A DNA stretch of 20,226 nt from a virus, in IMG/VR virus record IMGVR_UViG_3300047554_000311, positions 1-20,226 of that record; one strand, written 5' to 3'. Positions 1 to 10,799 of the stretch are shown here, in pieces. Under the pieces are notes generated by a model that was not told where the DNA came from, made no database searches, and saw only the letters and a program-made list of their open reading frames with translations. The position numbers and the translations under genes are program-made. How positions within the stretch are numbered: position 1 is the stretch's first letter; each line of letters begins with the position of its first letter.

Positions 1-405
1 CTCGGGATCAGTCAGCAGCTCGGGGTTGCCGATCAACGCAGGGCGGATGAAGTTCTTGATGAAGTGCCAGGTGTCCGACTTGGTCTTGTCGGCGGCGTTG
101 CCTGTGGACAGGATGCCGTTGTGTGCGAGCCAGACGTCGTTGGTCACCATGTAGGGATGACAGTTGTCGAAGTCGATGTCGCCGTGCGTCTGCATGCGTG
201 CATGCCACACGCAGTTCTTGCCCTCGGCGTGTGCGCGGTAGAAGCCGATGAACTCCTGAGCGTTGGCGGGCAGGCACTTGAAGATGTGCAGCTTGTCATC
301 CTCGGCGTACATCACGCCCAGGCCGTCCTGGTTCTTGTTGAAGACGTCGGCGAGGAACTCGTCGGTGAAGTTGGAGCTCGTGGTTTGCTGAACGAGAAGA
401 CACAT
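1..405 (-). CDS. Class II glutamine amidotransferase-like protein (partial, C-terminus beyond left edge)
   Basis: The visible 135 residues begin MCLLVQQ, placing a cysteine at position 2. That is the nucleophile position of Ntn-type class II glutamine amidotransferases, which hydrolyse glutamine and pass ammonia to a partner synthetase. Other family landmarks appear in order: HARMQTHG near residue 70 (the R-x-x-T-x-G type segment), NCHPY, LAHNGIL around residue 100 (Asn-Gly of the oxyanion/glutamine pocket) and SDTWHF near 115. The start at 405 is chosen because it exposes Cys2 and has AAGGA at good spacing upstream. The gene lies 29 bp downstream of the amidoligase-like gene 435-1793, with no terminator seen between them, so co-transcription and ammonia supply to that ligase are likely (inference). 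The reading frame has no stop before the window edge. An amidohydrolase role without a ligase is possible. Confidence 0.85.
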   Translation of the reverse strand, partial: MCLLVQQTTSSNFTDEFLADVFNKNQDGLGVMYAEDDKLHIFKCLPANAQEFIGFYRAHAEGKNCVWHARMQTHGDIDFDNCHPYMVTNDVWLAHNGILSTGNAADKTKSDTWHFIKNFIRPALIGNPELLTDPE

Positions 406-434
406 GTTGTTGATCCTTGGTAATTGATGATTGA

Positions 435-1793
435 TTAAGCTGCTTCGAGACGCTGTGCCAGGTAGGGGCGCAGGAACTCGGTCTCGTTCGACTCGTCGCT
501 GTTGATGAACTCGAGGAACTTGTCTGCCTTGAGGTCAACGATTGAGGTTTTGGCTCGGCCGCAGAAGTCCACGACCGCGTTCGAGAACTCGATCGCTGCC
601 ATAACTGACTCGTACTTCAAGCTGCCCTTGAAGATGCGGAACTCAATCGTCTTGCGAGAGGTGATGTTCACCGCTTCGTAGCGATCTTCAGAATGCGCAG
701 CAGCGCCGATCTTCTTGTGCTTGATCCTGCAATATCCCTCGGCGTACCGACGTGCGACTGCGCGAATCAACTGCTCGTTGTCAGGGTCGTTGACGAACGT
801 GACGATCTTGGCGATCTGAAGCTTCGACAAGTTCTGCTTGCTGACGTGGACGTGCAGGCCGCAGGTTGTCGTGTTGTGCGAGCGAAGATGCCTGACCAGG
901 TTGCGGTCATTGAGCCAGGCCCACAGCTCACGATGCTTGTCGAGACCCATCGGTTGGCTGATGATCTCGAAGCCGTGGCTGATCGAGCCATCGTTCTCGA
1001 AGAACACGCGCTTGCCGAACTCACCGTCGTTGACGTGATCGAAGATTTCCTTGGCTTTGGTGGCTCGGTCTGAACGATCGGCCACTACCTCGACCTCGAG
1101 CTCAACACCCAGATAGCGCTTCTTCAGCTTGGTCCACTCGCTTGGCTGCTCGCGTTGCGAGTGCTTGCTGCTGTGGTAGTTGCCGATGATTCTGGATGCG
1201 GGATCGTAGTCCTCATGGACATAGGTGTCCTCGTCATCGTCGTAGGTAAAGTCATCGTCTTCGTAGTGGATCGTGCAGCTTCGGCCGTCTTGGTCGATTG
1301 CACTCCTTGCGTCTTCGCCGTAGATGTACGCGTCGTAACGGTCCGAATACTGGTATTCGTTGTCGATGCAGCTGCGGCAGATTGTTGCGTCCTCGTTGCC
1401 GTAGTAGTCGCGTGCGTGATCGCTGAGTTCCCACTCGCCGCAGTCATCGCAACGGACCAAGCCCTTCTTGCGCTCGAGGTAGTCGATGATGTCGTCGTAG
1501 TCGTCGGCATCGCTGTATGAGCTGAGCCAGTCACGCAGCCCGTAGCTCGACATCTCGGCCAGGTACATGCTGCGCAGGTCGATGCGAAGACGAAGCATGT
1601 GGTAGCCGTCTCCGTCGTCCTTCATGAATGAGCAGACGTTGTTGCGAAAGTAGGTCGGGAAGATGTCAATGATTTCCAGCAAGGTGCTGACGTCGCCCCC
1701 TTCTCTTGCACGATTTGCGATGCTCTGCGCAAAAGCCGCTTGCTCGGCATGTGTTGCGCTCATCTTCCTGATGAGGTAGTTGTTCGGTTTCAT
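435..1793 (-). CDS. Amidoligase-like protein (glutamine-synthetase fold, Amidoligase_2 type) with N-terminal Cys cluster
   Basis: This 452-residue protein carries the pattern of GS-fold COOH-NH2 ligases in its C-terminal half: LGVELEVE (228-235), ENDGSISHGFEI (266-277), CGLHVHVS (311-318), RYEAVNI (371-377) and TIEFRIFKGSL (382-392). These Glu, His and Arg residues are the expected metal/ATP-binding set. Such enzymes join an amine to a carboxylate using ATP. The N-terminal half is different: a possible zinc ribbon with Cys115/Cys118 and Cys139/Cys142, then a very acidic, Tyr-rich stretch (about 177-197). The start at 1793 has GGAG six bases upstream; the internal Met11 has poor spacing. A strong terminator just upstream separates it from the preceding operon, and the class II amidotransferase gene follows 29 bp downstream. 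Family assignment is from motif recognition; the substrate (protein, cell wall or metabolite) cannot be read from the sequence. Confidence 0.82.
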   Translation of the reverse strand: MKPNNYLIRKMSATHAEQAAFAQSIANRAREGGDVSTLLEIIDIFPTYFRNNVCSFMKDDGDGYHMLRLRIDLRSMYLAEMSSYGLRDWLSSYSDADDYDDIIDYLERKKGLVRCDDCGEWELSDHARDYYGNEDATICRSCIDNEYQYSDRYDAYIYGEDARSAIDQDGRSCTIHYEDDDFTYDDDEDTYVHEDYDPASRIIGNYHSSKHSQREQPSEWTKLKKRYLGVELEVEVVADRSDRATKAKEIFDHVNDGEFGKRVFFENDGSISHGFEIISQPMGLDKHRELWAWLNDRNLVRHLRSHNTTTCGLHVHVSKQNLSKLQIAKIVTFVNDPDNEQLIRAVARRYAEGYCRIKHKKIGAAAHSEDRYEAVNITSRKTIEFRIFKGSLKYESVMAAIEFSNAVVDFCGRAKTSIVDLKADKFLEFINSDESNETEFLRPYLAQRLEAA

Positions 1794-1812
1794 TTGATCT
1801 CCGAATAGAAAT

Positions 1813-1836
1813 GAAAAAGCCCGCCATAAGGCGGGC
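1813..1836 (-). terminator. Rho-independent terminator, minus strand
   Basis: Perfect 7-bp stem GCCCGCC/GGCGGGC (1819-1825 and 1830-1836) with a 4-nt loop. On the minus strand it is followed directly by TTTTT (complement of 1814-1818). It ends the transcript coming from the 5310-1918 operon, just before the amidoligase start at 1793. Confidence 0.9.
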
Positions 1837-1866
1837 CAAGGTCACGTTCAAACAGGGGTTACATAC

Positions 1867-1909
1867 AAACAGCAAGAGAGGATTCCCCTCCCCAAAGAGG
1901 GGAAGACAC
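1867..1909 (-). repeat. Flank-conserved intergenic hairpin, copy A
   Basis: Stem TTCCCCTC/GAGGGGAA (1883-1890, 1897-1904) with a 6-nt loop. It is bordered by CAAGAGA (1873-1879) and AGACA (1904-1908) as read on the plus strand. The same flanks surround different stems at copies B (8591-8645) and C (9112-9160). No T-tract follows directly, so it is probably not a terminator by itself. The true terminator lies about 50 bp further along at 1813-1836. Confidence 0.65.
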
Positions 1910-1917
1910 TCCCTGAA

Positions 1918-2394
1918 TCAAGCTGGCGCTGGAATTCTCCTGGCCTTGTTCTTCTTGATCTGATCCCACACGTCGTCGAGCGCACCTTCCATCTCTGCAA
2001 CTGTGCAGATGTCGAGCTGCGCGTCGTGGATTTCCATCGTCAGGTTGATGGCGTTGAGCTCGGGGCCGGTGGCCACGAACCTGCCAAGTGATACTGACCT
2101 GACGCCGAGGTTGTAGAGCGCGTCTTGACCAGCCTTGATCTCGGCGCGAAAGTCTTCGCCGATGTTCCTGATGGCTAGCGCCTCGGTGACGTTGAACGCC
2201 TGGATCAAGATGTCCACGTCGTCCTTGTCTGCTTGGCCAAGACGCAGCTTGTCGATGGCGTTGTGGTTCTTGATGCGCGTGTCGAGGATGATGCTGCCGC
2301 CGCCCACCTGAGCAGCCTTAAGCATGCCGCTCTTGATCCATGCCATCGTGTCCAGTCTCACGCCCTTGGGTTTGTACTTTGACTTCTTCCTCAT
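1918..2394 (-). CDS. Conserved-looking phage hypothetical protein (158 aa)
   Basis: The protein starts MRKKSKYKPKGVRLD, a basic N-terminus, followed by a mixed helical body with no membrane segment and no recognised catalytic motif. Its start overlaps the stop of the upstream gene in an ATGA arrangement (2391-2394), supporting translational coupling and the chosen start. It is the last gene of a long co-directional unit that begins near 5310 and ends at the terminator at 1813-1836. The basic start and the length remind me of hypothetical proteins in phage accessory regions, but I do not recognise a function. Confidence 0.8.
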   Translation of the reverse strand: MRKKSKYKPKGVRLDTMAWIKSGMLKAAQVGGGSIILDTRIKNHNAIDKLRLGQADKDDVDILIQAFNVTEALAIRNIGEDFRAEIKAGQDALYNLGVRSVSLGRFVATGPELNAINLTMEIHDAQLDICTVAEMEGALDDVWDQIKKNKARRIPAPA

Positions 2395-2732
2395 GCCAGC
2401 ACCTCAGGCACATCGACTTCATCACCCAGCTTGCTGGCCACGTAGCACCGCATGGCGGCGATTAAACAAGTGTCGCCTTCGCCACGAACAACATCCATAT
2501 TTTCGTAGTCGGTAACTAACGTGCCAATCCATCCGCCGTAGGTGTTGGTGCAGACGTCGATCATCTCCCGCTCAATGATCGGCCCGCCGTGTGACCAGTC
2601 GCTTGAGTAGCGCTCCCCCTCAAAGTATGTATACCGGTGCAGCCATCCTTCGGGGTCATATGTTGCCCCTTGCGCAATGTCTACCGCCCAATCGAGCGCG
2701 ACTTCTGTAAGTTCATTGGTTTTGATTTTCAT
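2391..2732 (-). CDS. DUF2591/NinX-like phage protein
   Basis: The 113-residue product begins MKIKTNELTEVALDWAVD, the N-terminal signature I associate with the phage DUF2591 (NinX) family. Later segments fit the same family: a Tyr-rich centre, then 'SSDWSHGGPIIER' around residues 43-55 and a C-terminal 'CLIAAMRCYVASKLGDEVDVPE' region, interrupted here by quoting. The molecular role of the family is not established; members occur in phage early or delayed-early regions. An upstream open extension exists, but the start at 2732 overlaps the preceding stop in an ATGA junction and matches the family N-terminus. It also overlaps the next gene by four bases. Confidence 0.85.
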   Translation of the reverse strand: MKIKTNELTEVALDWAVDIAQGATYDPEGWLHRYTYFEGERYSSDWSHGGPIIEREMIDVCTNTYGGWIGTLVTDYENMDVVRGEGDTCLIAAMRCYVASKLGDEVDVPEVLA

Positions 2733-3124
2733 GTTGATGCTCCGAACAGCGCCGCCGTCAGTGGGTCGCGCTGTGGTTTCTTCTTGGTCCAGTAGTAAGC
2801 CCTGCTCTTGGCAAGCAAGTCTTCCCATCCACCATTCTTCTTGAGCCCGCGTCGATACCTCTTGACTCGGTCGGCATCGGTGGTCAGCTTCGGCATCTTG
2901 ATCGTGTACCTCGCTGGCGCTGGGCCAGGGTGATACACATGAATCAGCGGCCCGCCGTGAGGGTGGACCTCCATGTGATGCACATGAATGTCGCCAGCAT
3001 CGAGTAGGTCTTTGAGCCACCTGTGTGTGGTGGCCAGGCTCAACCCTGTGCGCTGCCTCACATCGGCGTTACTGCCTGGTAGTGCGGCCAACACTTTGGC
3101 GCGATTGACTCCGCGCTTAGCCAT
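2729..3124 (-). CDS. Winged helix-turn-helix DNA-binding protein
   Basis: Residues about 8-70 read as a small winged-helix domain: a first helix (AKVLAALPG), a helix-turn-helix (ADVRQRTGLSLATTHRWLKDLLDAG) and a beta-wing with HVHHMEV...LIHVYHPG. The C-terminal 60 residues are basic (KRYRRGLKK, WTKKKPQR) and may add DNA or RNA contacts. It is probably a phage regulator of accessory-gene transcription, but no operator can be assigned. The start at 3124 overlaps the preceding glutaredoxin stop by one base (TAATG), and the stop overlaps the next gene by ATGA, so it sits inside a tightly coupled operon. MarR- or IclR-like architecture is possible, but too little is present for a family call. Confidence 0.8.
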   Translation of the reverse strand: MAKRGVNRAKVLAALPGSNADVRQRTGLSLATTHRWLKDLLDAGDIHVHHMEVHPHGGPLIHVYHPGPAPARYTIKMPKLTTDADRVKRYRRGLKKNGGWEDLLAKSRAYYWTKKKPQRDPLTAALFGAST

Positions 3125-3354
3125 TAGATGCCGAGCTGCTTCAACGCTGCCTGTAAGCCAGCCAAGCCACCGACACGCTGACCGTCGATGAAGATTTGTG
3201 GCATCTGTCGGGCATCGGGGTACTTGTGAAGGAGTGTGTCAAGAATGTTCCCTTGCGCGTCCAGTTCCTTGTACTCCAGCCCCTTAGAGATCAGGATTGC
3301 TTTGGCGATGGTGCAGTTGGGGCAGTTGGCTTTGGTGTAGATGGTGATGTTCAT
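3124..3354 (-). CDS. Glutaredoxin (internal start, 76 aa)
   Basis: This is a complete small thiol-disulfide oxidoreductase: MNITIYTKANCPNC gives a first beta strand and the CPNC dithiol active site at residues 11-14, QMPQIFIDGQRVGG (50-63) supplies the cis-Pro loop (Met-Pro), and GLAGLQAALK forms the last helix. Length and motif order fit NrdH/Grx-like phage glutaredoxins, which commonly donate electrons to ribonucleotide reductase or maintain cytosolic thiols. No reductase gene is in the window, so the partner may be the host enzyme. AAGGAAAA lies just upstream of the ATG at 3354. It is in frame with, and inside, the longer 3124-3471 frame. Confidence 0.85.
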   Translation of the reverse strand: MNITIYTKANCPNCTIAKAILISKGLEYKELDAQGNILDTLLHKYPDARQMPQIFIDGQRVGGLAGLQAALKQLGI

Positions 3355-3471
3355 GCGTTTTCCTTTCAGTGTTTGTCGTAGCACCCATCGTGCGTCAATG
3401 CGATCTGCAAACCAGCGAAACAGCTTACGGCAGTCGTCTTGCAACAAGCCCGGGGGCCAGCCAGTTTTCAT
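3124..3471 (-). CDS. Small phage protein fused in frame to glutaredoxin (115 aa)
   Basis: The full frame encodes an N-terminal 39-residue segment (MKTGWPPGLLQDDCRKLFRW, then FADRIDAR) followed without a stop by a complete glutaredoxin. The N-terminal segment resembles a short stand-alone hypothetical protein that I recall from Burkholderiales phages; that is memory, not a search. The start at 3471 overlaps the upstream stop by ATGA and has AAGGA about nine bases upstream, so the long form should be translated. The glutaredoxin part has its own start at 3354 with AAGGAAAA upstream and is listed separately. Both products may be made from one mRNA. Confidence 0.65.
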   Translation of the reverse strand: MKTGWPPGLLQDDCRKLFRWFADRIDARWVLRQTLKGKRMNITIYTKANCPNCTIAKAILISKGLEYKELDAQGNILDTLLHKYPDARQMPQIFIDGQRVGGLAGLQAALKQLGI

Positions 3472-4619
3472 GTGTTCTTTTCCTTGAGTTTGGCTTCAAA
3501 GTTTTTCATCATTCGCTTAAACGGTGTAGGCACATACCCATGGGTACTTTTGAACCCGCCGATTTCGTATAACTCCTCATCCGTCAGCCCAACCCATTGC
3601 CGCTGTGCTGCGGGTGGCGTAGCCACGTTGGGTGGGGTGGTGTAGAGGGGTTTCGTGAAGTTGCCCGCCGCAGTTTTGCGTGCCGGGATGTAACGGCCAT
3701 CCTTGTGACCTTCGGGGTCTGTGTGCTTTTCGAGCTGACCTGCCGACACAAACAGCACCGGCTCCTGCACAGGTGCTGGCTGTGCTGCGGGTGGTGTCCA
3801 CCCAAGCTCAATCAGCTTGTCACGCAAAGCGCCTTCCTTTTCGGCCTCGCTTGCGTCAATGCGGATATGTGCAAACGGGTACTTCTCGCTGGTCATCTTT
3901 GCGATGGTTTCCGCTTGTTCTTCGGCGAGCGCTTTCCAGTCCTGCGCTGGCTCTTGCTGTGCGGGCGAGGCAGCGTTCACCATTGAAGCCCACACGTTAT
4001 TGGCTTCAATGCGTATGTCGTCGCTGTATTTCGCTTGGTCATACGCCGCTACCATCTCAACAGTCGGCACAACTGGCACCAGCTTCCATCCCTGCGCAGG
4101 TGCTGGCTGTGCTGCGGGTGGAGTGGTGTAGAGGGGTAGATCAAACCCGCCGACCTTGTGTGTGTATGAGTTCAGGCGCTCGTGTTCTTTGCGCGTTTTG
4201 TCGGTCATCCACTCGTCGTGCTCTGCGCTGTACCAACTGTGCGGCTCCTGCACAGGTGCTGCGGGTGGGGCGGCTTCCAGTGCAAACAGGTGGCGAATCC
4301 AGAGCTGTGCCCCGGCCTTGGTCAGGTGCGCCCCGTCATGCTCAGTTTCGACCCATGCAGGCCACAGCTTGAAACCACTCATTGCCATGTGCTTTTTCAT
4401 TTGCCCAACCGTCAAACCTGACTGACCGTAAAGCATGAGAAAGCAGCGCACCGCTTTGTTTTCCCCTTCGGCATCCTGCACAGGTGCTGCAAGGGCTTGC
4501 TTGATGGCGGTGATGGCTTCTTCGGCGCGTTCTATCTCCTCTATGCTGAGTGCTAGACCTTTGAAGAATTCCAACGCCGCCAGCGCCAAGTCGAGTGCTT
4601 CGTCTTTTGGGTGTGTCAT
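3468..4619 (-). CDS. Modular linker-repeat phage protein of unknown function (383 aa)
   Basis: The protein is built from short unrelated modules joined by recurring Ala/Pro/Gln linkers: PAAQPAPAQ, PAAQPAPVQEP, PAAPVQEP, SPAQQEPAQ, and twice PLYTTPP. At the DNA level the linker sequence (plus-strand CAGGTGCTGGCTGTGCTGCG type) recurs near 3771, 4098, 4253 and 4481. Modules include a short helical N-terminus (DEALDLALAALEFF), a segment with WIRHLFALE, and a C-terminal GLTDEELYEIGG piece. Similar bead-on-linker proteins are, in my memory, common in Burkholderiales phages and prophages; the function is unknown. The start at 4619 has AGGAGG six bases upstream and overlaps the previous stop by ATGA. 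A longer frame upstream lacks that support. Confidence 0.8.
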   Translation of the reverse strand: MTHPKDEALDLALAALEFFKGLALSIEEIERAEEAITAIKQALAAPVQDAEGENKAVRCFLMLYGQSGLTVGQMKKHMAMSGFKLWPAWVETEHDGAHLTKAGAQLWIRHLFALEAAPPAAPVQEPHSWYSAEHDEWMTDKTRKEHERLNSYTHKVGGFDLPLYTTPPAAQPAPAQGWKLVPVVPTVEMVAAYDQAKYSDDIRIEANNVWASMVNAASPAQQEPAQDWKALAEEQAETIAKMTSEKYPFAHIRIDASEAEKEGALRDKLIELGWTPPAAQPAPVQEPVLFVSAGQLEKHTDPEGHKDGRYIPARKTAAGNFTKPLYTTPPNVATPPAAQRQWVGLTDEELYEIGGFKSTHGYVPTPFKRMMKNFEAKLKEKNT

Positions 4620-4816
4620 GGTTGTCCTCCTGTTGCCTTGGCGATGGCGGCGCGGGCGGTTTCCCACTCGGGCTTTCCGTTGTCCCAATACATGACGCCT
4701 TCCAGCGCCTCAACACAAGCATCGCGCTCCTCCATGAGGCGAATGATGATTTCCACCGCTTGATCCCGTGTGAGGAACGACAAATCGCGCGCGTCTTTGA
4801 CCGTCATACTGGTCAT
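4616..4816 (-). CDS. Small hypothetical protein (66 aa)
   Basis: MTSMTVKDARDLSF starts a mostly helical, acidic protein with RDQAVEIIIRLMEERDACVEAL in its middle (quoted only to its key part: AVEIIIRLMEER) and WDNGKPEWETARAAI near the end. The start at 4816 is preceded by AGGAGG and overlaps the stop of the 54-aa membrane protein gene by ATGA. Its own stop overlaps the next start likewise. I do not recognise a function; length and composition fit a small phage accessory protein. Confidence 0.75.
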   Translation of the reverse strand: MTSMTVKDARDLSFLTRDQAVEIIIRLMEERDACVEALEGVMYWDNGKPEWETARAAIAKATGGQP

Positions 4817-4977
4817 ACCTTCCTCCTTGCTTTGCATTTGTCCTGATCGGGTTGCGCCAACTGTTTGCAGTCGGTCGGGTTGTGTGTCCGGGGTGCATGG
4901 TTCAGCATGAGGTAGGCAAGAAAGCCCCACAGTGCTGCGCCAATAGCCAGCCGGATGACGAACCCGCGCTCAGTCAT
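4813..4977 (-). CDS. Small single-pass membrane protein (54 aa)
   Basis: This short gene reads MTERGFVIRLAIGAALWGFL followed by AYLMLNHAP, giving one transmembrane helix at about residues 7-26, then a polar tail with two Cys (36 and 48) and a basic end (KARRKV). The start has AAGGAGG just upstream. It overlaps the preceding stop by ATGA at its start and the next gene by ATGA at its stop, which is strong positional evidence for a gene this short. It could be a spanin-like, superinfection-exclusion or other inner-membrane peptide; nothing in it decides among these. Confidence 0.7.
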   Translation of the reverse strand: MTERGFVIRLAIGAALWGFLAYLMLNHAPRTHNPTDCKQLAQPDQDKCKARRKV

Positions 4978-5153
4978 TTGTCCTCCTTCTTAATCGGGAT
5001 GTAGAGGCAGTGCTCGTCCATTGAATTGACGCAGTCGTGCTGAGGGGTGCGCTCACCCCATGTCTGGTCCTCATGAGCAGCCCAGCGCTTGCAGCCCTTG
5101 CAGTTGTGGTCAGGCAGCAAGGCATTGCACCTGGCGTAGTCATACGGAAGCAT
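4974..5153 (-). CDS. Small Cys-rich hypothetical protein (59 aa)
   Basis: The product begins MLPYDYARCNALLPDHNC and has Cys at about residues 9, 18, 21, 41 and 49, including a CKGC pair, plus several His. That could bind a metal such as zinc, though no classical finger spacing is complete. I recall similar small proteins starting with 'YDYARC' in phage early regions, function unknown. The ATG at 5153 has GAGAGG five bases upstream; a GTG six bases earlier is the alternative. It overlaps the end of the upstream 56-aa gene by 14 bp and couples to the next gene by ATGA. Confidence 0.72.
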   Translation of the reverse strand: MLPYDYARCNALLPDHNCKGCKRWAAHEDQTWGERTPQHDCVNSMDEHCLYIPIKKEDK

Positions 5154-5310
5154 GGTCACCTCTCTTGCTCACGCTCTTGGCCAGCAGCCACTTGTCGCCA
5201 AGCAGTCGCACTTGCCGCACCCACTGGCGCTGATACGAACGGTTGTGCTCGCGTGGAATGTGCTCTGAGCAGAACAGGTGACGCACGATCTTCAATGCCT
5301 TGGTGTTCAT
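5140..5310 (-). CDS. Small basic hypothetical phage protein (56 aa)
   Basis: The frame MNTKALKIVRHLFCSEHIPR continues with NRSYQRQWVRQVRLLGDKWLLA and ends KSVSKRGDHASV (segments quoted separately). It is highly basic, with Arg/Lys/His spread along two predicted helices, so nucleic-acid binding is conceivable. The 'WVR-VR-LGDKWLLA' core matches small phage hypotheticals I have seen in Burkholderiales phages. A longer frame over the same region is an out-of-frame shadow that would cross the terminator. The start at 5310 has GAAGGA and follows repeat leader copy R1, making it the first gene of a nine-gene transcription unit. Confidence 0.75.
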   Translation of the reverse strand: MNTKALKIVRHLFCSEHIPREHNRSYQRQWVRQVRLLGDKWLLAKSVSKRGDHASV

Positions 5311-5379
5311 AGTTTTCCTTCGATGTAAATATTGAAGTGGGAGTTGCCCTTGAATAGCAAACGCCCCCGAAGGGGCGTT
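5311..5379 (-). promoter_or_regulatory. Terminator-plus-leader junction, copy R1
   Basis: On the minus strand, stem AACGCCCC/GGGGCGTT with a TTCG loop (5360-5379) ends the upstream unit. It is followed by a conserved 22-nt core (complement of 5323-5344: ACTCCC, TTCAATATTTACAT) and then GAAGGA before the ATG at 5310. The core recurs at 6957-6978 and 8054-8075, with 17 of 22 positions identical in all three. The T-tract here is weak. The core may be a phage promoter or an mRNA leader signal; I cannot tell which. Confidence 0.7.
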
Positions 5380-5397
5380 GTTGTTTATCGCTGGTGA

Positions 5398-5784
5398 TTA
5401 CCACCAACTGTCGTAGATCACCGCCTTGCCGTTGGCGATTGCAAGCCGTGACCTTTCAACGAACTCGAGCACATCCTTCGTTGCTTCGGGTGTCATGTCA
5501 TCCTCGTCACCCCAGAAGAACCCGGATGCAGGCTTGAGTGTTGCGGCCTCAGCAGCCAGGCGATCGAGGTCTTCACGCATGAGCCTGACCGTGTTGCAGT
5601 TGAAGCTGCTGCTCTGCCCTCCCTTCTTGAAGTACAGGTCAGCCATCCACTGATGCAGGTTGTTGAACTTGCGCCAGTAGGCGAAGTCCCTGTCCAGCCC
5701 CCTGACCTTATCGAGGTCGATGTCGACTTGCTTGTCTCCGACTTGCTCCTGGTCGCATGTGTACGCGTACATATCAAGACCCAC
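5398..5784 (-). CDS. 'GLDMY' family phage hypothetical protein (128 aa)
   Basis: The GTG at 5784 gives an N-terminus (M)GLDMYAYT, the hallmark start of a widespread phage hypothetical family. AAGGAG lies just upstream; earlier in-frame ATGs are not supported. Family-like landmarks follow: FAYWRKFNNLHQWM near residues 32-46, a Cys-Asn-Thr-Val segment, SGFFWGDEDD near 86-95 and TKDVLEFVERS near 102-112, ending YDSWW. No catalytic residues are known to me, and the role is unknown. It overlaps the coiled-coil gene upstream by 11 bp and is the last gene before the R1 terminator. Confidence 0.82.
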   Translation of the reverse strand: MGLDMYAYTCDQEQVGDKQVDIDLDKVRGLDRDFAYWRKFNNLHQWMADLYFKKGGQSSSFNCNTVRLMREDLDRLAAEAATLKPASGFFWGDEDDMTPEATKDVLEFVERSRLAIANGKAVIYDSWW

Positions 5785-6019
5785 GGCGCTCTCCTTGTGC
5801 GTTGATGATTCGTTGTGAAGACATGAGCTTGAGCTCAAGGCTTCGCTTGTCCTTGGTCAGTTGCTTGACCTGGTCCTCGAGGTCGATGAGCCTGAGCCTC
5901 ATGTACTCGAGTTGCATCGCCTGCGCATGGATCGCTTCCGTCTTCATGCGCTCGATGGACTTGGCTGCTTTCTCAGCCTGCGTGAGCGGCTTCGGCGCTT
6001 CGCCCTTCGGTATTGCCAT
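5774..6019 (-). CDS. Small coiled-coil protein (81 aa)
   Basis: MAIPKGEAPKPLTQAEKAAK leads into a long heptad-rich helix (IERMKTEAIHAQAMQLEYM, then RLRLIDLEDQVKQLTKDKRS), a clear coiled coil over roughly residues 20-72. No enzyme motif is present; self-association or a scaffold-type role is plausible. The start at 6019 has GAGGGA upstream. Its first 47 bp overlap the end of the preceding gene in another frame, larger than usual but compatible with both being real. Confidence 0.7.
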   Translation of the reverse strand: MAIPKGEAPKPLTQAEKAAKSIERMKTEAIHAQAMQLEYMRLRLIDLEDQVKQLTKDKRSLELKLMSSQRIINAQGERRGS

Positions 6020-6284
6020 TGGTTGGTCCCTCTAGTAGTTCGATTGCCTCGAGCAGGTAGTTGCGAGCAGCGTCGATGTCGGGCTGCTCCTCGAACACAT
6101 GCTCGGTGCTTGTCGCAAGCCAGTCGTTCAGCAAGAACTCAGACTTGCGCACCAGGTCCAGCACCTGGTTGACCGCGGCGTGCGCCATGCGCATGACCTC
6201 TGCCGCCTGGTCGAGGTCACCGTAGGTACAAGTGCGCCGGTCGATGAGCTCGGACAGCTCGTAGAGTTTCTTCATCCTGCCCAC
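5973..6284 (-). CDS. Hypothetical helical phage protein (103 aa)
   Basis: The protein is almost wholly helical and acidic (KKLYELSELIDRR, DLDQAAEVMRMAHAAV, LLEAIELLEG) with a polar Gly/Ala tail. The GTG at 6284 sits one base after the upstream stop and has GGAG at good spacing; the ATG at 6275 is the alternative and shortens the product by three residues. I recognise no function. It lies between a DUF6876-like gene and a coiled-coil gene in the same transcription unit. Confidence 0.7.
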   Translation of the reverse strand: MGRMKKLYELSELIDRRTCTYGDLDQAAEVMRMAHAAVNQVLDLVRKSEFLLNDWLATSTEHVFEEQPDIDAARNYLLEAIELLEGPTNGNTEGRSAEAAHAG

Positions 6285-6285
6285 G

Positions 6286-6654
6286 TCAGTACTCCGAAGT
6301 GAGCATCAGGACGTTGCTCTGAAGGAAGAAGCGCCAAGTTCCCTGCGGGCAGTCAGTGAATGAGATGCGCCGCGTGTACAGCTCTTCGTCATTGCCGTCA
6401 GTCACGACCAGGTCGCACGACTCGTTCTCGTAGACGCGCAGCTTGATGTCCAGGAATGGGTTGAACCGGGCCAGGCTGCGGAACTCAGTGCCGATGATGT
6501 CAAGCAGCCAGTAAGCGCCGCCACCTGCATTGGTGGCGAAGTACTTGACGCCGTCCGTGTAGTTCAGCCACCGGTACAGCGGGTTGAAGTGGTATCCCTC
6601 AGTGCCGATGAACTGCTCGAGCTCGGACTGAAGGGTGATGGTGTCGGTGGTCAT
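6286..6654 (-). CDS. DUF6876-like protein (122 aa)
   Basis: The order of motifs MTTDTITLQSELEQFIGTE, YTDGVKYFATNAGGGAYWLL, then LRVYENESCDLVVTDGN and a C-terminal FLQSNVLMLTSEY matches the family I know as DUF6876, found in phages and integrative elements. The family has no established activity. The start at 6654 overlaps the preceding stop by ATGA and gives the expected family N-terminus, so the longer upstream frame is rejected. The conserved tail 'SEY' at the stop shows the protein is complete. Confidence 0.85.
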   Translation of the reverse strand: MTTDTITLQSELEQFIGTEGYHFNPLYRWLNYTDGVKYFATNAGGGAYWLLDIIGTEFRSLARFNPFLDIKLRVYENESCDLVVTDGNDEELYTRRISFTDCPQGTWRFFLQSNVLMLTSEY

Positions 6655-6947
6655 GCTTCTTTCTTGAGGTTGCGGTAAGGCAGGGCTGCGATCTGGTCCA
6701 GGAGGGATTCGACCTGCTCCCATGTCAGGCGGCCGAGCACGTCGTCTGTGATTGGCGTCTCGTAGTCGAGCGACCAATCCCACGGGCCATCTCCAGCGCC
6801 CAGGGTGACGGCCAACTCCCACAACCCACCTTCAGAGCCATAGCTGAAGGAGTGGCGAATGACGCTTGCCCCCTGGTTGTTTGGGAATCGGTAGATTTTC
6901 TGAACGCCGCCGTTGATTTGGCGTTCTGTTATTGGTTCGTGCTTCAT
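6651..6947 (-). CDS. Conserved-looking phage hypothetical protein (98 aa)
   Basis: MKHEPITERQINGG is followed by a beta-rich core (KIYRFPNNQGASVIRHSFSYG, read in two parts; GLWELAVTLG) and an acidic helical end (TPITDDVLGRLTWEQVESLL). The pattern 'YRFPN-GASV-RH---YG---GLWELAV' recurs, from memory, in phage and mobile-element hypotheticals often next to DUF6876 genes. Function unknown. The start at 6947 has GAGGA upstream and follows repeat leader R2; an ATG 90 bp earlier would read through the terminator and is rejected. Confidence 0.8.
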   Translation of the reverse strand: MKHEPITERQINGGVQKIYRFPNNQGASVIRHSFSYGSEGGLWELAVTLGAGDGPWDWSLDYETPITDDVLGRLTWEQVESLLDQIAALPYRNLKKEA

Positions 6948-7012
6948 CTGGTCCTCACGTAAAGATTGAATCGGGAGTGGTTCTGGAAAAGAAAAAGGGA
7001 GCCGAAGCTCCC
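6948..7012 (-). promoter_or_regulatory. Terminator-plus-leader junction, copy R2
   Basis: Minus-strand stem GGGAGC/GCTCCC (6997-7002, 7007-7012) with a TTCG loop and a following TTTTT tract is a clear rho-independent terminator for the 8037-7034 unit. Immediately after it comes the shared 22-nt core (complement of 6957-6978) and then GAGGA before the ATG at 6947. A single short segment therefore ends one unit and precedes the next. Confidence 0.75.
6990..7012 (-). terminator. Rho-independent terminator with UUCG loop, minus strand
   Basis: Six-bp GC-rich stem GGGAGC/GCTCCC closed by TTCG, followed on the minus strand by TTTTTC. It lies 22 bp after the stop of the membrane protein gene 7034-7426. 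Confidence 0.9.
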
Positions 7013-7033
7013 TTGTTGGTGGGTTGAATGCTG

Positions 7034-7426
7034 TCACCGGATCAGCTCGGCGATCGCCTTGATGAGGTAGACCTTTGGCGCGAACCAGATCAGCAGCGTG
7101 TGCTTGAACTGGATCATCGTGATAAACAGCATCAACACGCTGGCAATACCGCCAAAGATCATGGCGGTGATTGCAGAGTCAGCAGTTGACCCGTAGCGAT
7201 CTCTCTTCTTGCTGAAGAAGCCGTACGTGAGCGCCACGTAGAGCGACGCAGCAAGCAGCAGCACAAAGAACAAGAGTGAAGCAGTCTCGTACACCAGGGA
7301 GAACTGCATGTACGTGGTCACCACGTCAGGCAGTTGATCCAGAGTGAAGTCCTTGGCGGCAGTCACGCCAGCCGTCATCCCGTCGATGATCTCGACGAGC
7401 TTGCCTTGGAGCTGCTCGTTCATCAT
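7034..7426 (-). CDS. Two-helix membrane protein, possibly holin-like (130 aa)
   Basis: Two hydrophobic segments are clear: about residues 46-70 (ending YVALTYGFF) and 84-106 (SAITAMIFGGIASVLML onward), separated by a basic loop SKKRDRYGS. The C-terminus reads LIWFAPKVYLIKAIAELIR, a 'PK-YLIE--A-L' ending I recall from phage membrane hypotheticals. Size and topology allow a holin role, but no endolysin or spanin gene is adjacent, so that is speculation; ion or exclusion functions are alternatives. The first ATG overlaps the upstream stop by ATGA; Met2 is a second possible start. It is the last gene before the R2 terminator. Confidence 0.78.
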   Translation of the reverse strand: MMNEQLQGKLVEIIDGMTAGVTAAKDFTLDQLPDVVTTYMQFSLVYETASLLFFVLLLAASLYVALTYGFFSKKRDRYGSTADSAITAMIFGGIASVLMLFITMIQFKHTLLIWFAPKVYLIKAIAELIR

Positions 7427-7635
7427 CGTGCGTCCAAGATGGCGACGATCTTGTCCCGCGTCTCCATGATCTCGGCCTTCTTGGCTTCGATCTTGGTCGA
7501 GGTGGCGCGGACAGAACTCAGTGCGCTGTACTCAACCTCGAGCTGCTTGATGCTGTCGATGAGTTGCCCATCGCTGAGCTTGGTCACGTCAGCGTCGTTG
7601 ATGTAGGTGATGTTCTTGATTTCGATGGAAGGCAT
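7423..7635 (-). CDS. Internal-start coiled-coil protein (70 aa)
   Basis: An in-frame ATG at 7635 is preceded on the minus strand by CAGGAGAACCTT, a near-ideal Shine-Dalgarno sequence with six-base spacing, far better than expected by chance inside a gene. The product, MPSIEIKNITYINDADVTKL onward, is a complete small helical protein. It would be the same as the last 70 residues of the 204-aa product. Whether it is made separately is inferred, not shown. Confidence 0.55.
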   Translation of the reverse strand: MPSIEIKNITYINDADVTKLSDGQLIDSIKQLEVEYSALSSVRATSTKIEAKKAEIMETRDKIVAILDAR

Positions 7636-8037
7636 AAGGTTCTCCTGGATAGGTTTGGTTTCTGGTTGGCCGTTGATGGCCTCGGGGGTTGCGGGATGGT
7701 TGCCCATCACTTGGCTGGCAAGCCAGCCAAAGCCGTGACTGTGGGCATAGCTGATGTGCTTGCAGAAGATGTCGTCGTTTCCAAACCTGGCTTTGACCAT
7801 CTCTGAGCTCAGCATGTACTCGAGCACCATCAGCCTGATGTAGACCTTGTCGTCGGTGTCAGGTTCGTAGAGCTTGTGTCTCTTGCGCAGGATGTCTACA
7901 AAGTCATCCACCCTCAAGACGAACGGCTTGAAGTTGCGATCCTCGAGCACACACCGAAGGTTGTTGTGCCAAGCGCCGTCGTTGACGATCGCCAGGTAGT
8001 ACTGGTCGTGAAAGTACTGGAAGTCATGTTCAGTCAT
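7423..8037 (-). CDS. Two-part hypothetical protein with C-terminal coiled-coil domain (204 aa)
   Basis: Residues 1-134 form an unrecognised domain (FHDQYYLAIVNDGAWHNN, LRVDDFVDILRKRHKLY). Residues 135-204 begin MPSIEIKNITYINDADV and continue as a helical coiled-coil region (LSDGQLIDSIKQLEVEY, KIEAKKAEIMETRDKI). The second part resembles a small stand-alone phage protein from memory and has its own strong ribosome-binding site at 7635, so this looks like a gene fusion or a lost stop codon. The start at 8037 follows GAGAGGA and repeat leader R3. A competing ATG at 8041 opens only a three-codon frame ending inside this gene's start. Confidence 0.75.
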   Translation of the reverse strand: MTEHDFQYFHDQYYLAIVNDGAWHNNLRCVLEDRNFKPFVLRVDDFVDILRKRHKLYEPDTDDKVYIRLMVLEYMLSSEMVKARFGNDDIFCKHISYAHSHGFGWLASQVMGNHPATPEAINGQPETKPIQENLMPSIEIKNITYINDADVTKLSDGQLIDSIKQLEVEYSALSSVRATSTKIEAKKAEIMETRDKIVAILDAR

Positions 8038-8041
8038 TCAT

Positions 8042-8115
8042 CGGTGTCCTCTCATGTAAATACTGAATTGGGAGTAGCTCTTGAGAAAGAAAAAGGGGTG
8101 ACCGTAGCCACCCCC
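8042..8115 (-). promoter_or_regulatory. Terminator-plus-leader junction, copy R3
   Basis: On the minus strand, an 8-bp stem (complement of 8095-8102 and 8107-8114, one G-U pair) closed by a TACG loop and followed by TTTTTC ends the unit above. The shared core (complement of 8054-8075: ACTCCCAATTC, then AGTATTTACAT) and GAGAGGA follow directly before the start at 8037. Same architecture as R1 and R2. Confidence 0.75.
8091..8115 (-). terminator. Rho-independent terminator with UACG loop, minus strand
   Basis: GGGGTG-based 8-bp stem, UNCG-type tetraloop and a T-tract on the minus strand, six bases downstream of the stop of gene 8121-8564. Confidence 0.88.
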
Positions 8116-8120
8116 TTGTC

Positions 8121-8564
8121 TCAGTACGGAGCCGGTTCTGCGTGAGCAGTCGGTTGCATGCCCACCACACGGCGCTCGACAGCCATCGGCTTGGCCAAGC
8201 GTTCCATGCAGGTTGCCATCAGCAGTTTGACGGCGCTGTCCACGTCGTCTTGAGTCTTGCTGTCGTCCAGCATGGCTCGCTGGATTGCTTGCACGCACTC
8301 CAGAATCTTGACCTGGGTCATCGCCTCGCGAATACCAGCGCCAGGCAATTCCTTGCCGCACCAGCCCAGACCAACGCCCATCATGTAGGCAGCGCCTAGA
8401 ACATTGTCAGGAGCAGGAGCGGTTTCCTGCTTGGCGATCTCAGCAGCGATCATCTGGCTGGCTTCTTCGCGGGTAGCAGGGCATTGCAGTTGACGCTTGG
8501 CGAACCACACGAGCTGCTTAGCAGTGGGAGCGTTGGCGTTCAGAGATTTGGTGGTGAAAAACAT
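8121..8564 (-). CDS. Hypothetical phage protein (147 aa)
   Basis: The N-terminus MFFTTKSLNANAPTAKQLVW leads into FAKRQLQCPATREEASQMI, a 'T-KQ---A--L--P----EAS-LI' pattern that in other phage proteins forms a small helical unit. The middle has Gly-rich AAYMMGVGLGWCG and the end is Ala/Pro-rich (HAEPAPY). No function is recognised. The start at 8564 has AAAGGAA upstream. It is preceded by hairpin copy B and followed immediately by the R3 terminator, so it may be a short transcription unit or the end of the 9004-8121 unit. Confidence 0.75.
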   Translation of the reverse strand: MFFTTKSLNANAPTAKQLVWFAKRQLQCPATREEASQMIAAEIAKQETAPAPDNVLGAAYMMGVGLGWCGKELPGAGIREAMTQVKILECVQAIQRAMLDDSKTQDDVDSAVKLLMATCMERLAKPMAVERRVVGMQPTAHAEPAPY

Positions 8565-8590
8565 GATGAGGTTCCTTTACAAAGGGTTGA

Positions 8591-8645
8591 GAACAAAAAA
8601 CACAAGAGAAAGCTGGCTGGCTCTCTCCGCAGGAGAGCCAGACAG
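8591..8645 (-). repeat. Flank-conserved intergenic hairpin, copy B
   Basis: Stem CTGGCTCTC/GAGAGCCAG (8617-8625, 8633-8641) with a 7-nt loop, bordered by CAAGAGA (8603-8609) and AGACA (8640-8644). On the minus strand it is followed a few bases on by a T-rich run (GTGTTTTTTG), so it could act as a weak terminator after 8685 or as a processing/stability hairpin for the 8564 gene. Confidence 0.65.
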
Positions 8646-8684
8646 AATTCGGCTCGTAAGCCCACAGGCTCACGCAAACCACAG

Positions 8685-8864
8685 TCAACGGTAGGCGTTG
8701 AGCTCGTAGCGGTGGACGCACCAGCAGAAGATGCCGACCAGAACAAAGCACGGCGCAAAGCCGACGATGAACGGCAACCCAAGGTTGATAACCAGAAACG
8801 GGAAGGCGAAGTAAAAGCCGGGAACGATGCCAACTAAGGCGAAGGCAGCAATGACGAGCAGCAT
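8685..8864 (-). CDS. Small two-helix membrane protein (59 aa)
   Basis: Nearly the whole product is hydrophobic: MLLVIAAFALVGIVPGFYF, then AFPFLVINLGLPFIVGF and a second helix region to VLVGIFCWCVHRY, ending ELNAYR. It would insert in the inner membrane as a hairpin. I prefer the ATG at 8864 because GGAG lies seven bases upstream and the stop of the 45-aa frame upstream is only two bases away; an ATG 12 bp earlier has no ribosome-binding site. No family recognised. Confidence 0.65.
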   Translation of the reverse strand: MLLVIAAFALVGIVPGFYFAFPFLVINLGLPFIVGFAPCFVLVGIFCWCVHRYELNAYR

Positions 8865-8866
8865 GA

Positions 8867-9004
8867 TTAGCTCCATGTAGTTGTGAAGGGGTTTATGTTT
8901 GCTTTAAGCATCTGTGTGTACGTAACCAGAGGCGCTGGTCGAAGCCCACGTCTGTGGCAGTAGGAAAGGTACTCAGAATAGGGTTTGGCAATGGGTGGTT
9001 TCAT
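8867..9004 (-). CDS. Possible small hypothetical protein (45 aa)
   Basis: A short frame, MKPPIAKPYSEYLSYCHRRG followed by LRPAPLVTYTQML, ends two bases before the next start at 8864, the close spacing seen throughout this arm. The 'Y-EYL---RGL-P' texture resembles short phage hypotheticals. There is no convincing Shine-Dalgarno upstream of the ATG at 9004, so it could be chance coding. If real, it is the first gene of the leftward arm. Confidence 0.45.
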   Translation of the reverse strand: MKPPIAKPYSEYLSYCHRRGLRPAPLVTYTQMLKANINPFTTTWS

Positions 9005-10240: not shown

Positions 10241-10316
10241 CTGGGTGTAGCTCAGATGGTAGAGCACGCGCTTTGGGAGCGTGAGGTCGCAGGTTCGATC
10301 CCTGTCACCCAGACCA
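10241..10316 (+). tRNA. tRNA-Pro (anticodon UGG)
   Basis: Acceptor CTGGGTG/CACCCAG, D-stem GCTC/GAGC, anticodon stem CGCGC/GCGTG with loop TTTGGGA (UGG), T-arm GCAGG-TTCGATC-CCTGT and encoded CCA: a complete 76-nt cloverleaf. First of six tRNAs. Confidence 0.95.
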
Positions 10317-10333
10317 ATTCAAACTCTTGGCGT

Positions 10334-10355
10334 AATACGACAACCTCGTCGTATT
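10334..10355 (+). repeat. Inverted repeat between tRNA-Pro and tRNA-Tyr
   Basis: AATACGAC (10334-10341) and GTCGTATT (10348-10355) form a perfect 8-bp stem with a 6-nt loop in the 54-nt tRNA spacer. No T-tract follows. Possibly an RNA-processing hairpin or protein-binding site. Confidence 0.6.
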
Positions 10356-10370
10356 GACACCCCCGCTCAT

Positions 10371-10457
10371 GGGGGTGCGGCGCAGATGGTGAGGCGCAGC
10401 GGACTGTAAACCCGTTGACCAAGAGTCGAGAAGGTTCAAATCCTTCCACCCCCACCA
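10371..10457 (+). tRNA. tRNA-Tyr (anticodon GUA)
   Basis: Acceptor GGGGGTG/CACCCCC, D-stem GCGC/GCGC, anticodon loop CTGTAAA (GUA), the long variable arm expected of bacterial tRNA-Tyr, T-arm GAAGG-TTCAAAT-CCTTC and encoded CCA; 87 nt. The base pair closing the anticodon stem is an A-C mismatch. Confidence 0.92.
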
Positions 10458-10476
10458 TCATCCCCCTGAAGATTTT

Positions 10477-10552
10477 TGTCCGGTAGCTCAGTCGGTAGAG
10501 CGCCGAGCTGTTAACTCGGTGTGCGTAGGTTCGATGCCTACCCGGACAGCCA
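10477..10552 (+). tRNA. tRNA-Asn (anticodon GUU)
   Basis: Acceptor TGTCCGG/CCGGACA, D-arm GCTC/GAGC, anticodon stem CCGAG/CTCGG with loop CTGTTAA (GUU), T-arm GTAGG-TTCGATG-CCTAC, discriminator G and encoded CCA; 76 nt. Confidence 0.95.
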
Positions 10553-10557
10553 GTTGT

Positions 10558-10631
10558 ATGCCGCTCGTCCAATGGCAGGACGCTGGTCTCCAAAACCAGT
10601 AATCGGGGTTCGAGTCCCTGGCGGTATGCCA
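10558..10631 (+). tRNA. tRNA-Trp (anticodon CCA)
   Basis: Acceptor ATGCCGC/GCGGTAT (one G-U), D-stem GTCC/GGAC, anticodon stem CTGGT/ACCAG with loop CTCCAAA (CCA), T-loop TTCGAGT, discriminator G and encoded CCA; 74 nt. It lies five bases after tRNA-Asn and one base before tRNA-Thr. Confidence 0.94.
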
Positions 10632-10632
10632 A

Positions 10633-10708
10633 GCCCTTGTAGCTCAGTTGGCAGAGCTGCCCCCTTGTAAGGGGAAGGTCGTGGGTTCGATTCCTACCGA
10701 GGGCACCA
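10633..10708 (+). tRNA. tRNA-Thr (anticodon UGU)
   Basis: Acceptor GCCCTTG/CGAGGGC, D-stem GCTC/GAGC, anticodon loop CTTGTAA (UGU) on a CCCC/GGGG stem, T-arm GTGGG-TTCGATT-CCTAC and encoded CCA; 76 nt. Confidence 0.94.
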
Positions 10709-10713
10709 GATAC

Positions 10714-10799
10714 GGAGCCTGGCGTGCAGGGCACAAACGGGGCTTGAACCCCCGGCCACTTGGCGACAGGTGAGGGTTCGATTCCTTCAGGCTCCGCCA
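10714..10799 (+). tRNA. Ser(UGA)-type tRNA with reduced D-arm
   Basis: Acceptor GGAGCCT/AGGCTCC, anticodon stem CGGGG/CCCCG with loop CTTGAAC (UGA), a variable arm ACTTG/CAGGT, T-arm GAGGG-TTCGATT-CCTTC, discriminator G and encoded CCA support a class II tRNA-Ser. The D region (10721-10737) has only 17 nt, lacks U8 and the usual AG...GG...A loop, and can form at most GTGC/GCAC around three bases. It may be a functional aberrant tRNA or a decaying one. Confidence 0.75.

Follow-up and report, generated by a model that had tools for sequence, protein, structure and literature searches.

A tightly coupled amidoligase and glutamine amidotransferase gene pair of phages and bacterial mobile elements, a candidate two-component amidation enzyme

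At the far left end of a podovirus-like phage fragment, on the minus strand, a gene for an amidoligase is directly followed by one for a class II glutamine amidotransferase (GAT). Do these genes encode a single amide-forming enzyme, and on what would it act? The fragment (IMG/VR record IMGVR_UViG_3300047554_000311), all 20,226 bases of which are called the window here, had been read in an earlier note as carrying an amide-transfer system in a transcription unit of its own. Phage amidoligase/GAT neighbourhoods have been described since 2009, the cassettes of phiEco32, LUZ24 and RIO-1 being credited to Iyer et al. (2009) and later papers (via PMC5498523; PMC10580990). LUZ24-like phages carry an Amidoligase_2 protein, a COOH-NH2 ligase, a GAT and an ATP-grasp protein (PMC3890496). 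Similarly, a seven-gene "peptidoglycan modification cassette" was described in RIO-1-like phages, phiEco32 and others, the idea being credited to Iyer and Hardies (PMC5498523), and the pair itself (PF12224 and PF13522) was reported from over 30 marine viral genomes as well as from MEP401/402, its functions being left to explore (PMC10580990). The pairing of amidoligases with GATs invoked in the earlier note is thus documented for phages in these three papers. Added here are the strict coupling of the two genes, the minimal gene content, a cysteine module in the amidoligase and the distribution on mobile elements.

The features of the window are collected in Table 1. Three of them had gone unremarked in the earlier note, namely the truncation of the GAT, the four-cysteine module and the near-absence of room for a promoter after the terminator. 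Two 56-kb phages encode amidoligases 86% identical and GATs 99% identical to those of the window (over the visible part of the GAT). Amidoligases 26-64% identical to that of the window occur in further relatives, among them mycobacteriophage Marvin, Methylophilales phage MEP402 and MW202733 (Manatee Spring). In these three, as in closer relatives, the GAT follows the amidoligase with no gene between. A tyrosine integrase is encoded by 14 of 20 pair-bearing phage records, the four closest relatives among them, which makes a temperate life cycle probable for the window phage and a function of the pair in the lysogen worth considering.

Table 1. Features of the window, with positions on the 20,226-base stretch.
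Feature	Position	Strand	Basis or remark
Class II GAT, first 135 aa of about 328, cut by window end	1..405	-	GATase_4, GlmS profile match, L002 model
Intergenic gap, 29 bp, with ribosome-binding-site-like AAGGAT ahead of GAT start	406..434	-	Sequence
GS-fold amidoligase with putative zinc-ribbon-like module, 452 aa, intact	435..1793	-	Pfam, AF2 model, GS fold, invariant residues
Parts of the amidoligase (residues)			N-terminal helices 1-110; four-cysteine module C115/C118/C139/C142; acidic beta-hairpin stretch about 146-200; GS-fold ligase domain 218-452
Intrinsic-terminator-like hairpin and T run, directly upstream of pair	1818..1837	-	Ends 24 bp before amidoligase ATG
Second C/G-rich hairpin, TTCCCCTC-TTTG-GGGAGGGGAA, without T run	1877..1905	-	4/8 pairs changed on both sides, 7 relatives
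Leftward block of small genes	about 1-8900		
Six-tRNA cluster	10241-10799		
Large terminase	11095	+	Profile matches
SU10-type portal	12546	+	Profile matches
Major head protein	16896	+	Profile matches

The first protein is, by sequence and predicted structure, a GS-fold member of Amidoligase_2, for which ATP-dependent amide formation is predicted. The four motifs singled out in the earlier note are all present in this ORF, at residues 229-235 (GVELEVE), 266-270 (ENDGS), 311-318 (CGLHVHVS) and 382-392 (TIEFRIFKGSL), and the profile search that it proposed assigned the protein to PF12224 (Amidoligase_2) at 39 bits against a curated cut-off of 22. PHROG 2443, "amidoligase enzyme", matches as well (E 1.7e-14). 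The GS-like fold that had been suspected was recovered in an AlphaFold2 model built on an alignment of 43 amidoligases (pLDDT 88), residues 218-452 of which match GS with a Foldseek E of 3e-6. With VIA-align (overall Z 13.4-11), the same residues match a YbdK homologue (Z 13.4), plant glutamate-cysteine ligase (13.0) and GS (12.7), the superpositions having an rmsd of 3.5-3.7 over 189-219 residues; gamma-glutamylmethylamide synthetase is also among the fold matches. Together with this fold, the protein has the E-x-E, H-x-H, R and E-x-R sites expected of GS-like amidoligases. Indeed, G229, E231, E233, D268, S270, E276, G312, H314, H316, R349, N376, T382, E384 and R386 are invariant in 43 of 43 amidoligases, and E231-x-E233, D268, E276, H314-x-H316, R349, N376 and E384-x-R386 presumably correspond to the metal, ATP and substrate sites of GS.

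Ahead of the ligase domain stand two cysteine pairs, C115-x2-C118 and C139-x2-C142. C118, C139 and C142 are present in all 43 amidoligases and C115 in 40 of the 43. PDB sequence matches to this module are weak (E 0.1 or worse) and mostly to small zinc-binding domains, so that it may be zinc-ribbon-like. Among solved structures, no sequence relative of the amidoligase was convincing, the best (E 0.097) being a PHD-finger protein aligned over the cysteine module. In the MW202733 amidoligase (locus L014, 1926-3482), compared with residues 110-200 of the window protein, the region past the first CxxC pair resembles extra copies of a small motif; the second copy keeps its cysteines in MW202733 (CHRCGNC...CGAC), and these are lost in the amidoligase of the window phage.

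The second protein is, from its residues and the model of a close homologue, a class II glutamine amidotransferase. As had been noticed earlier, it starts with MC (start 405) after a gap of 29 bp and carries the landmarks R70-x-x-T73-x-G75, N96-G97 and S110-D111-T112 of this class. Its residues further include the Cys2 nucleophile after Met1, H68 (H68xR70..T73) and H95 (H95-N96-G97). Its visible part matches PF13230 (GATase_4) at 27.3 bits, the cut-off being 23. The complete protein of a near-identical phage (L002:6389-7372, 328 aa, 99% identical over the visible part) was modelled at full length with a pLDDT of 83. Both the residues of class II GATs (C2, R70, N96-G97, D111) and the Ntn-hydrolase GAT-II fold were found, and C2, H68, R70, T73, H83, H95, N96, G97, D111 and T112 are invariant in 55 of 55 GATs. 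In a profile search of solved structures, GlmS (E 1.4e-8) and PurF were nearest by sequence, and the HMMER alignment with GlmS pairs Met1-Cys2, H-x-R-x-x-T-H-G and H-N-G.

Whether this protein would donate ammonia or act as a simple hydrolase is judged differently by fold and by sequence. The L002 model matches the glutaminase domain of GlmS (Foldseek E 3.4e-7, Z 11.8) and, on a par with it, EgtC (Z 11.9), a gamma-glutamyl hydrolase, whereas the sequence leans to GlmS and PurF, and EgtC was not matched by the GAT profile among solved structures at E up to 0.1. An EgtA/EgtC-like ligase and hydrolase are the main rival to glutamine-dependent amidation. In such a make-and-remove pathway (that of ergothioneine, or of PuuA/PuuD type), an amine would first receive a gamma-glutamyl or amino-acid group from the GS-fold enzyme; the gamma-glutamyl bond would later be hydrolysed by the GAT-fold protein, which would donate no ammonia. 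EgtA/EgtC likewise combine a GS-fold ligase with a GAT-II-fold protein, and the plant glutamate-cysteine ligase and gamma-glutamylmethylamide synthetase matches of the amidoligase point the same way, as does the match of GATase_4, which takes in DUG3/EgtC-like proteins, to 47 of the 55 GATs. The active-site Cys, Arg and Asp would bind a gamma-glutamyl group under either chemistry. On the contrary, no ergothioneine genes were seen near the pair, no enzyme of an intermediate pathway step is conserved with it in 64 viral loci and no gamma-glutamylcyclotransferase (GGCT) was found in 20 pair-bearing records. Taken with the sequence preference for GlmS and PurF, this leads us to consider such a pathway rather unlikely.

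The two genes are tightly coupled, and the search for the same pair in related phages that the earlier note had called for gave a clear answer. In profile searches, 80 of 81 viral amidoligase loci have a GAT directly downstream on the same strand, and in the remaining one the contig stops just past the amidoligase. Conversely, 77 of 79 viral GAT loci have an amidoligase within 300 bp upstream; in the other two, the amidoligase lies 525 bp off or the contig begins inside the GAT. The partnerless loci (L094 and L205) are both cut at a contig end. As the same order recurs in 80 of the 81 viral loci, the recurrence of the pair is not due to chance. Pairwise divergences of the two proteins are correlated (r 0.89, permutation p 0.0005), as expected from co-inheritance, for which phage descent alone may also be sufficient. 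The GAT is the sole broadly shared neighbour of the amidoligase among 64 non-redundant viral loci. A third cassette gene was sought there and rejected, the next commonest neighbour family occurring in only 26 of the 64 loci, with neither a fixed position nor a fixed strand. No fusion of the two proteins was found among all ORFs searched.

The two genes are a real and conserved pair that probably encodes a functional two-component enzyme, and with modest confidence we take it to be a glutamine-dependent, amide-forming one. The GAT, with Cys2 as N-terminal nucleophile, would hydrolyse glutamine and hand the ammonia to the GS-fold amidoligase, which would use ATP to turn a carboxylate into an activated acyl phosphate and then into a primary amide. 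We infer both this transfer of ammonia and the amidation chemistry. A simple -CONH2 product is favoured over peptide extension because the pair has no amino-acid ligase partner. The zinc-ribbon-like N-terminal module suggests docking on a macromolecular target, which could be a protein, a nucleic acid or a wall precursor assembly, and our best guess at this target is a peptide of the host wall or surface, or else a host protein, whose modification, in the lysogen or at an early stage of infection, would benefit the phage. Some points argue against glutamine-dependent amidation by the pair. The GAT model is matched equally well by EgtC and GlmS, the tryptophan beside the catalytic arginine of GlmS is replaced by Met or Phe in nearly all of the 55 GATs, and GS uses free ammonia, so that a GAT is not strictly needed. 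The joint amide-transfer system proposed in the earlier note stands as the best reading, by inference, with the GAT fold equally accommodating an EgtC-like gamma-glutamyl hydrolase. MurT and GatD, which amidate peptidoglycan glutamate, have folds unrelated to those of the window pair, namely a Mur ligase and a class I GAT. They resemble it as a two-component system for glutamine-dependent amidation (PMC3267633).

The cassettes of phiEco32, LUZ24 and RIO-1 share with the window the order of an amidoligase gene and a class II GAT, the podovirus context, the location among early genes and the enzyme classes. However, the phiEco32 and LUZ24 records show three further enzymes, a COOH-NH2 ligase, an ATP-grasp ligase and a GGCT, none of which was found in 20 records with the window-type pair. 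The COOH-NH2 ligase (PF14395) and GGCT (PF06094) were each found in 0 of 20 pair-bearing records and in both controls (phiEco32 and LUZ24). The ATP-grasp (RimK-like) ligase, for which the LUZ24 protein served as query in place of a RimK Pfam model that proved too weak in a control, was likewise found in both controls and in 0 of the 20. These records are 17 viral contigs of 51-65 kb, which carry no completeness estimate, with MW202733, MEP402 and Marvin; the absence of a single cassette gene could reflect a missing contig end, an explanation that is unlikely for a consistent absence over 20 records. The amidoligases also differ, those of phiEco32 and LUZ24 being devoid of the N-terminal cysteine module while their GATs bear CxxC motifs near the C-terminus instead. 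The profile of the window family scores the phiEco32 amidoligase at 10.9 bits and that of LUZ24 not at all. Finally, integrases are encoded by most of the minimal-pair phages. The window system is therefore the minimal variant, of two genes only, and its amidoligase is built differently.

Two-gene counterparts are found elsewhere. OM43 phages MEP401 and MEP402 have the same two-gene order and alignable proteins, with an amidoligase identity of 26%, and in mycobacteriophage Marvin gp105-gp106 are an amidoligase then a GAT on the same strand, 79 bp apart, with about 27% identity. In several cluster-mates of Marvin gp105 (L016 5815-7176), the label "glutamine amidotransferase domain protein" sits on the amidoligase, the GAT being the next gene (gp106), and is probably an annotation error.

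These comparisons bear on the target of the enzyme. Some authors, with reference to Iyer et al. (2009) and Hardies et al. (2013), proposed for phiEco32/RIO-1 type cassettes that modification of peptidoglycan or of the surface brings about superinfection exclusion, the wall peptides being amidated so that competing phages cannot adsorb (PMC5498523; PMC10580990; PMC11318856). This proposal concerns the target only and is compatible with two-component amidation, and the integrases of the 14 phages make a role in protecting the lysogen possible. On the contrary, it is put forward in these papers as a hypothesis, the window-type pair has none of the other cassette enzymes, a cysteine module would sooner be expected in a protein that binds proteins or nucleic acids, and the same genes occur in phages or elements of hosts with very different envelopes, namely mycobacteria, Methylophilales and Firmicutes. 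For the pair studied here, such a target is rather doubtful.

The pair extends beyond phages. Bacterial loci, mostly from Firmicutes with some from Polynucleobacter and others, keep the order of amidoligase and GAT in 57 of 80 cases by profile and in 57 of 62 when non-redundant loci are clustered by their neighbours. Within about 6 kb, 48 of the 62 have a gene for a recombinase, a relaxase, mobilisation or an excisionase, which points to a location on mobile elements; Pfam served to check the clusters of relaxase and resolvase, and those of integrase, MobC and excisionase were named from their sequences only. A small protein with no assigned function, DUF960, is encoded near the amidoligase in 27 of the 62 bacterial loci, at a median of 340 bp upstream (e.g. 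L109 5378-5710), and in no viral locus; it is possibly an extra subunit or specificity factor in bacteria. Membership in a known anti-phage defence system was rejected, as neither the amidoligase nor the GAT nor DUF960 matched a family of PADLOC-DB. A pair of GAT and QueC makes archaeosine; a link to QueC was also rejected, a QueC-like gene being seen only in relative G001 (41746-41892), unlinked to the pair, and absent from seven other relatives.

The cysteine module, the very different hosts and the mobile elements would also fit the modification of a conserved host protein. The module would recruit a host or phage protein (RNA polymerase, translation factors or a defence protein), of which an Asp/Glu or C-terminal carboxylate would be amidated, again compatibly with the two-component reaction. 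Besides the near-invariant cysteines, occurrence in phages and near mobility genes fits host takeover or counter-defence, and Burroughs et al. argued likewise for other phage amide ligases (PMC4431377); the pair, however, matches no PADLOC family, and we give this target only tentative credence. Others considered nitrogen. The pair was counted with the auxiliary metabolic genes of OM43 phages (PMC10580990), and such a role was suggested for a planctomycete phage (PMC10945688), the amide nitrogen being shuttled into nucleotide or amino-acid supply during infection. The divergent sequences, the cysteine module of the amidoligase and the lack of conserved pathway neighbours make this very unlikely.

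A bolder form of the amidation reading, in which the pair is a minimal self-contained module of temperate phages and bacterial mobile elements whose cysteine module recognises one macromolecular target and on which a primary amide is installed, is held to be quite unlikely. If true, the pair would modify a protein or the wall in a way for which no mobile element is yet known. The cell-wall function of phage amidoligase cassettes is an assumption repeated in the cited literature, and the two-gene form, with one ligase and one glutaminase almost never apart, is the simplest place to seek the substrate. The pair is also present in tractable phages, namely Marvin, a phage of M. smegmatis, and MEP401/402. 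For hundreds of phages and many mobile elements, a proven substrate would tell whether the pair protects the surface, modifies host proteins or serves nitrogen metabolism.

The expression of the pair is a further question, as the earlier note had placed it in a unit of its own after its own terminator. The terminator-like hairpin, a strong one, is indeed present and conserved; the separate unit fared less well, since the hairpin leaves almost no room for a promoter of the pair, and none of sigma-70-like type was found between it and the amidoligase ATG. With 24 bp available, read-through, antitermination or a phage-specific promoter would be required. Six relatives share this arrangement, mostly with different stem sequences, together with the second C/G-rich hairpin upstream. 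In the leader alignment, 89% of cells pair, slid controls being lower, and five pairs are changed on both sides, figures that come from a small sample of seven sequences and a structure derived from those same sequences. The tandem hairpins with covarying stems, the second terminator-like, lie within positions 1794-1933 of the minus strand, and at least six related phages keep them directly ahead of the pair; they are possibly an attenuation or antitermination leader. The motif TGCTGTTTGTATGTA between the two hairpins was considered as a repeated phage promoter and rejected, as it occurs only once in the window.

Other genes of the window and its relatives merit mention. Close relatives encode a Tad2-like (Thoeris anti-defence) protein (G001 6628-6858, G002 7601-7831 and G004 24200-24436), a gene that was not found in the window fragment. 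The leftward block contains genes for NinX (PF10765) and DUF6876, at 2391-2732 and 6289-6657 on the minus strand. Positions 3587-4280 hold four copies of a 34-nt repeat, two of them close and two about 65% alike, inside an Ala/Pro/Gln-rich ORF (3468-4688), and these copies suggest that its product is a modular low-complexity protein.
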